The notes beneath the pieces were generated by a model that was not told the origin of the DNA, ran no database searches, and was given only the letters and a program-made list of their open reading frames with translations. DNA of 64,000 nt from Thermococcus cleftensis (GTDB lineage Archaea; Methanobacteriota_B; Thermococci; Thermococcales; Thermococcaceae), in assembly GCF_000265525.1 (NCBI RefSeq), contig NC_018015.1, positions 1,276,322 through 1,340,321 of the forward strand. Direction: 5' to 3'. Both the position numbers and the translations under genes were made by a program. Of the stretch, positions 6,226 through 48,391 are shown piece after piece. Numbering within the stretch: the first letter of the stretch is position 1; each line of letters starts with the position of its first letter.

Positions 6226-6271
6226 TGAGGACCGTGCACAGGCCGATTGACCCAAAAAATGCCCAGCCCCC
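6226..6271 (+). other. 23S processing stem, left arm
   Basis: Pairs with 9314-9359 over more than 40 positions: an outer helix of about 27 bp, a short internal loop (CAAA at 6254-6257 opposite GATA at 9329-9332), then an inner helix leading into the 23S ends. The loop marks the expected endonuclease site but is a relaxed, not a perfect 3-4-3, bulge-helix-bulge. Two small hairpins (CCCGAGC/GGCTCGGG and GACCCC/GGGGTC) lie between tRNA-Ala and this arm. Confidence 0.85.
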
Positions 6272-9313: not shown

Positions 9314-9359
9314 GGGGGCTGGGCATTTGATAGGTCAATCGGCCTGTGCACGGTCCTCA
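9314..9359 (+). other. 23S processing stem, right arm
   Basis: Near-perfect complement of 6226-6271, closing the 23S precursor stem. About 110 bases follow before the next gene; they hold a T-rich patch (9373-9382) that may end the operon. Confidence 0.85.
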
Positions 9360-28968: not shown

Positions 28969-29046
28969 GGGCCGGTGGCTTAGCCAGGATAGAGCGTCGG
29001 CCTCCGGAGCCGAAGGTCGCGGGTTCGAATCCCGCCCGGCCCGCCA
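28969..29046 (+). tRNA. tRNA-Arg (CCG)
   Basis: Acceptor GGGCCGG/CCGGCCC, anticodon arm TCGGC-CTCCGGA-GCCGA (anticodon CCG), T-arm GCGGGTTCGAATCCCGC, discriminator G and encoded CCA. A TATA box GATTTTTAAAG lies at about 28933-28943. Confidence 0.96.
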
Positions 29047-29050
29047 GTTA

Positions 29051-29074
29051 CAAACTTCGCCTGTGCGAAGTTTG
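29051..29074 (+). repeat. Hairpin after tRNA-Arg, shared with tRNA-Val
   Basis: CAAACTTCGC-CTGT-GCGAAGTTTG is a perfect 10-bp stem with a 4-nt loop, five bases after the tRNA CCA end. The block from CCA through the hairpin to GATCA is the same as that after tRNA-Val (47369-47403) except for one loop base. It may be a 3' processing or termination element. Confidence 0.75.
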
Positions 29075-29236
29075 ATCAGAGTTGGTGGCTCCTCCTAGAG
29101 GCTTTCTTGTTCAGTGGTTTCTTCAGTCACTTGGAGTGTCTGGGTTTGGAAGCTTTTGGTTGAGAAACTCGTTGCCCAAGACTGTCCACCAACCGTTATA
29201 AGGGATCACCTTTAACTTTCCCGTTAGGTGTCAGTT

Positions 29237-46222: not shown

Positions 46223-46954
46223 TCACAGCTCCTTTTCAGTCTTTTCCACCAGCCTCCTGAGGCCGGTTATGAGCTCGGTCTCGCTCGCAACGTTGGAAAC
46301 CACCAGCGGGACCCTTTCACGCTCGGCCAGCTTGACCGCGAGCTCGTCGAGCTTCTTTACGCCGTGGAGAACAACCACCGCCGGCTTGAGGCCCTGGACG
46401 CGGACCGCTATCATTGGGCTTCTCCCAGTAGTGACCTTGGTGAATATCAGCGCCCGCTCCGTCGTCCAGCCGTAGAGCTTGAGGAACTCTTCACTGCTCA
46501 TCTCGAGGATCGCCCTTATGCTATCAACGACGGTGTAGCCGTAGATGCGCCTGTCGAGAAGGTGTATGTTGGCGACTACTTCCCCCTTGATAGCATTCAC
46601 GAGGTCCTTTATGGTTATCGGGAGCGCAAACTCCCTGATGTCAAGTATAGCGCTCGTTGGTAGCTCACTACCGATGGTCTTGCTGAAGGCCCTAATGACG
46701 TTTCCCCCGCGCTTTTCGTCTATCTCAAGGAGCGCTTCAACGAACTTCCTAATGGTAGATGCTCCAGGACTCTTTCTCCTTCCGCCTTCGTAGTCGCTTA
46801 TGACCGAAGAAGAGACGCCGAGGTATTCGGCCAGCTCTGTCTGGCTGATTCCGAATATCTCGCGCCATTTGCGCATTGTCTTGCCGGGGTCTGAGGAAAG
46901 GGTTATTTCCCCCGCTATCCTCTTTGCCAGAGCTTCTTTTTCCTTTTCAAGCAT
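46223..46954 (-). CDS. HTH (XRE-like) transcriptional regulator with C-terminal sensor domain
   Basis: A 243-residue regulator. Residues 25-75 form a Cro/C1-type helix-turn-helix (GISQTELAEYLGVSSSVISDYEGGRRKSPG); residues 95-243 form an alpha-beta domain of the archaeal COG1709 type whose ligand is unknown. The TATA element (TTATAACG, minus strand, about 46974-46982) lies 20-25 bases before ATG 46954 and no ribosome site is seen, so the transcript is probably leaderless. Autoregulation is plausible but not shown. Confidence 0.82.
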   Translation of the reverse strand: MLEKEKEALAKRIAGEITLSSDPGKTMRKWREIFGISQTELAEYLGVSSSVISDYEGGRRKSPGASTIRKFVEALLEIDEKRGGNVIRAFSKTIGSELPTSAILDIREFALPITIKDLVNAIKGEVVANIHLLDRRIYGYTVVDSIRAILEMSSEEFLKLYGWTTERALIFTKVTTGRSPMIAVRVQGLKPAVVVLHGVKKLDELAVKLAERERVPLVVSNVASETELITGLRRLVEKTEKEL

Positions 46955-46985
46955 AGTGGAGGATATTCGTCAATCGTTATAAGCT

Positions 46986-47400
46986 TTTCGGCAATTGCCT
47001 AACCCTTTCCTGCCTGGATCATATAAAACAGGTAATCTGGGGGAGACAACTTTGCATTTCAAAACATGCACCTCCACTTCTGCCAGCGCTTGCGAAGGGA
47101 GCTTTTGGAAAAAAGCTTGACCAAAAGTTCGTAGCTCTCCGTCGAAAAGCCCAGCAGGGGAGGATTTTACCCATTAAATGCCATCTTCCAGAAGAGAACA
47201 CGTTAGGTAAGCCCCGATAAGGTGTTTACTCTCCTCCTGACGCCCGAAGGGCGTCGATTTAAAGGTTAAACCCACACCAAAGAAGCACTTTGAAAAGTTC
47301 CACCTCAAAAACAGTCACTCAAAGAGAAAATCACTCAAAATTGTAGCTTTCAAGAAGAGCTACGAACTTGATCAAACTTCGCGCAGGCGAAGTTTGTAAC
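46986..47400. repeat. Repeat-rich, gene-free spacer before tRNA-Val
   Basis: About 415 bases with no convincing gene. It contains a hairpin-like GCTTTTGG...CCAAAAG (47101-47127), an inverted pair GTTCGTAGCTCT (47127-47138) / AGAGCTACGAAC (47356-47367) enclosing about 217 bases, the hairpin GACGCCCGAAGGGCGTC (47239-47255), and the tRNA-linked hairpin at 47373-47396. The ends look like decayed terminal repeats. A short minus-strand open frame (47019-47201) lacks a ribosome site. Confidence 0.5.
47373..47396 (-). repeat. Hairpin after tRNA-Val, shared with tRNA-Arg
   Basis: Perfect 10-bp stem CAAACTTCGC/GCGAAGTTTG with a 4-nt loop, located five bases after the tRNA CCA on the minus strand. The block 47369-47403 matches the one after tRNA-Arg with one base difference. 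Confidence 0.75.
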
Positions 47401-47478
47401 TGGTGGGCCCGCGGGGCTTCGAACCCCGGACCTCCGCCTCGTGAGGGCGGCGTCATAACCAGACTAGACCACGGGCCC
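47401..47478 (-). tRNA. tRNA-Val (CAC)
   Basis: Minus strand: acceptor GGGCCCG/CGGGCCC, anticodon arm CCGCC-CTCACGA-GGCGG (anticodon CAC), T-arm CGGGGTTCGAAGCCCCG, discriminator A and encoded CCA. Confidence 0.95.
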
Positions 47479-48315: not shown

Positions 48316-48391
48316 GCGACTCACCAGTTGGTCTTGGAGAAGACGCTTTTAAGCTTACTCCTGCCAGTGCTTGTACAAACAATGGCTGTTA

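Follow-up and report, generated by a model that had tools for sequence, protein, structure and literature searches.

A 35-nt block shared by two tRNA genes of Thermococcus cleftensis is the left end of a dispersed, near-palindromic repeat of about 300 bp

In the window, that is, the whole 64,000-nt stretch of Thermococcus cleftensis DNA analysed here, two unrelated tRNA genes are followed by practically the same 35 bases. The question is whether such a block serves these genes, as a dedicated tRNA terminator or 3′-processing signal, or whether it is a mobile repeat with tRNA 3′ ends as its target, both of which had been proposed in the original prediction. The features concerned are given below, where R1 denotes a covariance model built for the left end of the element to which the block belongs, and tile C a hairpin module of another type.

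28969-29046, + strand: tRNA-Arg(CCG) with encoded CCA (ARAGORN; Rfam RF00005)
29044-29078, + strand: first 35-nt block (CCA, GTTA, hairpin, ATCA), left end of the element
29051-29074, + strand: left end hairpin behind tRNA-Arg(CCG), stem 29051-29060/29065-29074 (10 bp), loop CTGT
29049-29098 (C1:1305370-1305419), + strand: left-end module behind tRNA-Arg(CCG), R1 match with E 1.1e-14, the copy being one of R1's own seeds
47401-47478, − strand: tRNA-Val(CAC) with encoded CCA (ARAGORN, Rfam)
47369-47403, − strand: second copy of the 35-nt block, behind tRNA-Val(CAC)
47373-47396, − strand: left end hairpin behind tRNA-Val(CAC), 10-bp stem, loop CTGC
48360-48388, − strand: tile C-type hairpin (CAGCC..CTGGCAGG) behind tRNA-Gly(TCC), where the 35-nt block would be

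As predicted, the shared sequence starts at the encoded CCA of both tRNAs, whose identities agree with the ARAGORN calls, the sole difference lies in the tetraloop (CTGT or CTGC), and the 10-bp stem is perfect, with 100% complementarity in both copies. The reported absence of the block behind the tRNA-Ala, tRNA-Gly and tRNA-Phe genes of the window was likewise confirmed, and it is unsurprising because tRNA-Ala(TGC) sits between the 16S and 23S rRNA (Rfam scan), tRNA-Phe is followed 8 nt later by the start of a tRNA-Gly (ARAGORN), and tRNA-Gly(TCC) has the other hairpin listed above. Allowing up to 3 mismatches, the hairpin pattern occurs at 2 sites in the window, where 0.02 were expected and where none of 100 shuffles had two, and at 8 sites genome-wide, with no site for the reversed pattern.

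The homology runs on beyond base 35. Rather than being a stand-alone signal, the block forms the left end of a near-palindromic intergenic element of about 300 bp. Only 35 near-identical bases stood out in the window because no other part of this element is as uniform as the terminal hairpin. Its parts are, in order, an end hairpin, a T-rich arm, a GC hairpin at the centre, the opposite arm and an inverted end hairpin. In the tRNA tails of the genome, the first hairpin passes into the common sequence SATCAARGTTYGTAGCTCC, followed by the T-rich arm and by the central hairpin near position 145, past which the inverted arm is closed by a second hairpin. A complete copy lies behind tRNA-Val(CAC):

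47100-47400, − strand: complete near-palindromic element, position 47100 approximate
47356-47369, − strand: left arm segment, complementary to 47125-47138 at all 14 nt
47239-47255, − strand: central hairpin GACGCCC-TTC-GGGCGTC
47125-47138, − strand: right arm segment, partner of 47356-47369
47100-47117, − strand: right end hairpin (AGCTTTT..AAAAGCT), followed by TGACCA on the + strand
47077-47097, − strand: adjoining hairpin repeat of the other type (CTTCGCAAGCGCTGGCAGAAG, tile C); near-identity to the element of another genome, G002, stops about here

The RNA fold of 47107-47403 has a z of -6.57, i.e. it is 6.57 s.d. better than 200 shuffles. Behind tRNA-Arg(CCG), neither a central GC hairpin nor a right end was seen after the left module, and this copy is therefore taken as a left-part remnant. 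In the genome of the window (G000), R1 matches form six inverted pairs of left and right ends with outer spans of 238-306 nt, among which no gene-enclosing copy is evident, while a seventh pair, 597 nt across, encloses tRNA-Lys and appears to consist of two elements. The Rfam scan of the window returned rRNA, tRNA, SRP and guide RNAs only, with nothing over 29047-29200 or 47100-47400, and the element in locus L073 gave two matches (E 0.23 and 0.88), far under the gathering score. It was also observed that right-end hairpins are followed by ACCA, as in L003:1762-1811 (− strand) and at 47094-47143 of the window, and left-end hairpins by ATCA; this recalls the tRNA acceptor end and may be a coincidence.

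In regard to the distribution in G000, the left end is located within 14 nt of the CCA in 17 of 46 tRNA genes, and all 17 tails show hairpins by eye. Another 5 tRNAs run directly into a further tRNA, and the remaining 24, which have no other tRNA within 60 nt, are without the element. Four of the 19 strong R1 copies are away from direct tRNA 3′ ends: one follows what appears to be a C/D-box sRNA (sR44 as best Rfam match, E 7e-5, under the gathering score), one behind the stop codon of cbf5 (a 337-aa protein with DKCLD, TruB and PUA domains), one behind a GC-rich RNA-like stretch, and one about 300 nt before tRNA-Lys. The other 15 are not independent evidence of a tRNA preference, because the 19 matches are the model's own 19 seeds, many of them found by looking behind tRNAs. 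A less biased count gives 6 of 11 palindromes behind a tRNA, with a pattern that was itself modelled on tRNA copies. Ahead of the element, two species have a GC-rich, RNA-like stretch (GGGACCCCCAGGGGGGCGACA..TGCCCCCCTTA; L073:1440-1500 and L134), possibly an unannotated small RNA, for which Rfam gave nothing above gathering in L073.

Beyond this genome, R1 matches were present in 45 of the 61 genomes of the family sample at E<=0.01 and in 26 of the 28 genomes of the own genus, reaching 56 per genome when left and right ends are counted together; genus g2, which we guess to be Pyrococcus, had them in 0 of 9 genomes at E<=0.01. An order-level sample, overlapping the family sample, had matches in 48 of 61 genomes at E<=0.001, and a strict pattern of tRNA plus hairpin was present in 39 of 61 (reversed control, 0 of 61). 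In genome_contigs, a collection described as 84,980 species from whose scan genomes near the window were possibly excluded, 58 of 58 matching stretches were MAG records titled Thermococcus, Thermococcaceae or Thermococci, and from these titles the sampled family is taken to be Thermococcaceae. The element was found here in Thermococcus and relatives only. In one stretch of G043 (L142), several elements and hairpin tiles are arrayed end to end.

A pattern that requires no tRNA, although modelled on tRNA copies, has 20 of its 60 occurrences in genome_contigs 0-3 nt behind a tRNA; the other 40 were not called behind a tRNA, and two of these look like tRNAs missed by ARAGORN. Many of the non-tRNA occurrences come after other hairpin repeats, and promoters, too, are found directly next to left ends. 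The element thus strongly prefers tRNA 3′ ends, though not exclusively. A strictly tRNA-dedicated terminator or processing signal fails, because the block is frequent away from tRNA genes, and the supposed confinement to tRNA genes is contradicted by the copies behind cbf5, behind the C/D-type sRNA and behind other repeats.

A less strict functional explanation considers the element a selected but immobile 3′-end module, a terminator or a processing or stability hairpin for tRNA and stable RNA genes, with the species differences resulting from terminator turnover. We regard it as possible but rather unlikely. It agrees with left ends placed directly behind RNA genes in sense orientation and with the occupation of the same sites in several species. 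However, the 24 element-free tRNAs of G000 speak against it, as do the left ends that abut promoters and other repeats, and G060, a member of the same genus, has 44 tRNA genes and no R1 match. For this genome 30 of the 44 tRNA loci were taken and 33 tails read; they are without such an element, and many of the 33 show, by eye, a short pyrimidine stretch after the CCA. The tail-reading script marked 4 of these 33 tails as 'A' with no hairpin visible by eye, so the tail-reading rule can err.

The structure of the element bears on the same explanation, in whose favour a T-rich left arm counts. The T fraction of the left arm is 0.34-0.42 at 40-120 nt from the left end. At nt 30-110, runs of T4 or longer are present in 153 of 183 sites versus 63 of 183 for A4 or longer, and runs of T5 or longer in 74 of 183 left arms (40%) versus 16 of 183 for A5 or longer, the T5 share being little above the base shuffle (0.32); the 183 sites come from loci fetched by these same searches, with sites dropped if they were cut by the locus end or matched the model in part only. 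Within 40 nt, T5 or longer runs occur in 0 of the 17 element-bearing tRNA tails of G000 versus 3 of the 24 element-free ones. In some copies, T4-5 follows the central hairpin on one strand.

The central GC stem, on the other hand, keeps its pairing in several different sequences and varies by whole-pair changes, which would favour a 3′-end module. Pair types were counted in a hand-set register on 39 distinct stem-loops, with L076:1087-1115 left out because of a mis-set register; the paired fraction is circular, because the stems were picked for pairing, and only the variety of pairs counts. A MAFFT alignment of the central hairpin, with 59 of 60 stretches after the same one was dropped, placed a gap in the stem. 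Likewise, the seed alignment of the left stem has 16 cells changed on both sides, a number reached in none of 500 shuffles; against this, pairs in which both sides changed are no more numerous than in the shuffles (3 versus 2.9), and the R1 seeds were chosen as hairpins, which inflates the structural support. Among the stem mismatches of 82 distinct hairpins, counted as a test of RNA-level versus DNA-level selection, G.T was found 11 times versus 7 for A.C, which gives no clear RNA-type bias and is not decisive.

Orthologous sites of different species were compared as well. Directly behind the stop codon of 30 orthologous cbf5 loci of the genus, sorted by eye, the present hairpin (tile A) was found in 5 genomes (G000, G002, G049, G079 and G082) and in a degenerate form in G022, tile C in 3 (G037, G052 and G076), tile D in 3 (G008, G056 and G065), and another hairpin in G073. 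The remaining 17 have no recognised module at that point, among them G048 with a hairpin-like stretch some 40 nt on. Tile D (AACGAAAGACAAGGGGGCTNCGCCCC), found behind cbf5 in those three species (L210, L221 and L227), is also located behind the genome's own tRNA-Leu(CAA) in L063. Tile C (CAGCCCTTGC..GCGCTGGCGGAAG) replaces the 35-nt block behind the own tRNA-Met, tRNA-Pro(TGG) and tRNA-Gly(TCC) and adjoins the right end of the Val(CAC) element.

The tRNA-Val(TAC) loci present a similar picture. Between G002 and G039, the upstream DNA together with the tRNA and the left hairpin is 86% identical over 1,556 nt and the downstream DNA 83% over 993 nt, while the element interiors have no match over 60 nt. 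The tRNA and element of G039 are instead 89% identical to those of Val(TAC) in G000 over 381 nt, and the interior of the G002 element is 98% identical to the Val(CAC) element of the window over 249 nt (95.6% over 405 nt with the tRNA included), an identity that stops at the tile C hairpin. Furthermore, in G049 tRNA-Leu(CAA) and an intron-bearing tRNA carry elements that are 92% alike and have identical right parts. This intron-bearing tRNA (L131, with a counterpart in G000) was called by ARAGORN only with the intron option, and its label Ser(AGA) is doubtful; it may be a tRNA-Met.

The differing modules at orthologous sites, together with the 98% match between Val(CAC) and Val(TAC), indicate that cassettes were exchanged. 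Descent is real as well, in view of an interior similarity with a mean score of 59.7 for the same tRNA in other genomes (38 pairs) and 25.7 for other sites (2404 pairs). For example, the Val(TAC) element is 98% identical in G000 and G055, with downstream synteny, and by this comparison is plainly vertical. Judged from these alignments, both vertical descent and element replacement occur. A breakpoint at the tRNA considered for this same pair was dropped, the upstream DNA being merely displaced by about 770 nt in G000. This extra DNA of about 770 nt (L071 607-1417, G000:C1 about 46645-47455) separates tRNA-Val(TAC) from the gene region upstream of it and is extra relative to G002, G055, G039 and G030.

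Near-identical copies at different tRNAs could also have been produced by a true transposable element, MITE-like or REP/BIME-like, whose transposase would recognise the end hairpins and have tRNA 3′ ends as its target. The inverted hairpin ends, the many copies and the site preference are consistent with such an element. Nevertheless, the Y1 transposase (PF01797) has 0 matches in G000 and in the element-rich G026, G049 and G052; it is present in 15 of 61 genomes, including the element-rich G030 and G034. Moreover, no longer gene-carrying copy is evident in G000, and the Val(CAC) element has no match in plasmid and phage collections, from which near records were possibly excluded. Inspection of element flanks by eye found no target-site duplication or clean pre-insertion junction. 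Transposition of this kind is therefore considered improbable. The proposed mobile repeat targeting tRNA 3′ ends thus stands in so far as the element is dispersed, exchangeable and strongly biased towards tRNAs; neither an enzyme nor an insertion junction was found that would show transposition itself.

The reading that we prefer, with a probability of about two in three, is that of an exchangeable, non-autonomous, dispersed near-palindromic repeat of about 300 bp lodged at gene 3′ ends, above all those of tRNA genes. Its anatomy, distribution, tRNA 3′-end preference and replacement at orthologous sites are direct observations. According to this model, the element would belong to a set of hairpin modules (tiles A-D) that can replace one another between a gene 3′ end and its neighbour, and whole cassettes would be copied or swapped between sites. 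Most simply, this could happen by recombination or gene conversion, anchored at one end by the tRNA together with the terminal hairpin and at the other by a different repeat. Such recombination between flanking repeats would account for replacement without a transposase, of which the Y1 type alone was searched. The cassettes would be tolerated and perhaps even kept, because each arm, read inward, consists of a hairpin and then a T-rich stretch, which could end transcription from both sides.

The arrangement of hairpin and T-rich arm recurs from the other side because the right half is roughly the inverse of the left, and this suggests a two-way transcript-ending or 3′-end module. A terminator function is plausible from the sequence features, and within the preferred reading of an exchangeable repeat we give it roughly even odds. 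The full combination is unlikely as a whole: the cassettes behind Thermococcus tRNA genes would be exchangeable, would end transcripts in both directions, and would spread with no dedicated transposase, through recombination for which the tRNA and the terminal hairpin serve as anchors.

Among known repeat families, the element would work most like REP/BIME or ERIC-type palindromic repeats. REP/BIME of bacteria are short extragenic palindromes present in many copies, often behind genes, and arranged in mosaics whose units alternate in orientation; they are associated with RAYT Y1 transposases. The element described here is also a short extragenic palindrome with many copies and mosaics, but it was found here in Thermococcus and relatives only, has a symmetric unit of about 300 bp and abuts tRNA 3′ ends, and membership in REP/RAYT fails on the cognate Y1/RAYT transposase in G000. 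ERIC/IRU and MITEs are imperfect palindromes of 100-300 bp with inverted ends, located in intergenic DNA. The element likewise is an intergenic imperfect palindrome, and it shares terminal inverted repeats and a short unit with MITEs; it differs in having end hairpins together with a central hairpin, and in its position directly behind gene ends. Intrinsic or archaeal T-tract terminators consist of a hairpin and a T-rich stretch behind an RNA gene, as seen in this element as well. The element is, however, much longer than a terminator has to be, and it is symmetric, dispersed and exchanged, with inconsistent T5 runs.

The location at tRNA genes also brings to mind attL/attR remnants of tRNA-targeting integrative elements. 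According to the accessible part of PMC5495485, the pTN3 integrase uses Thermococcus tRNA genes as recombination sites, and the inversion breakpoints of one Thermococcus genome pair fall in tRNA gene pairs; recombination events at tRNA loci are common to both cases. However, in that part of the source the described att sites are portions of the tRNA gene, which is itself the recombination site, while the homology of the present repeat begins behind the CCA, outside the gene, and is alike behind unrelated tRNAs. An origin as attachment sites is accordingly very improbable. The accessible part of the same paper has no mention of such a repeat, nor do those of PMC4247193, PMC5316973, PMC3124441, PMC8371274 and PMC3733652. 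A description of the family was not found in the open-access literature, judged by titles and abstract openings, a scope that leaves out most subscription papers.

In a broader context, Thermococcus genomes are described, in the accessible part of PMC2718504, as having few insertion sequences or repeats and nonetheless a chromosome shuffling unlike that of Pyrococcus. Near-palindromes of about 300 bp at tRNA 3′ ends, with observed swaps, are a candidate substrate for such shuffling and inversions. If the cassette reading is true, the homology between dispersed copies would give recombination longer targets at tRNA loci and would add to the unusual scrambling seen in Thermococcus chromosomes. 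Should the elements end transcripts as well, Thermococcus genetics would have in them a ready-made set of terminators.

The window holds one more inverted repeat, of 46 nt (93%), at 6226-6271 and 9314-9359. It flanks the 23S rRNA, and we take it to be the expected pre-rRNA processing stem.
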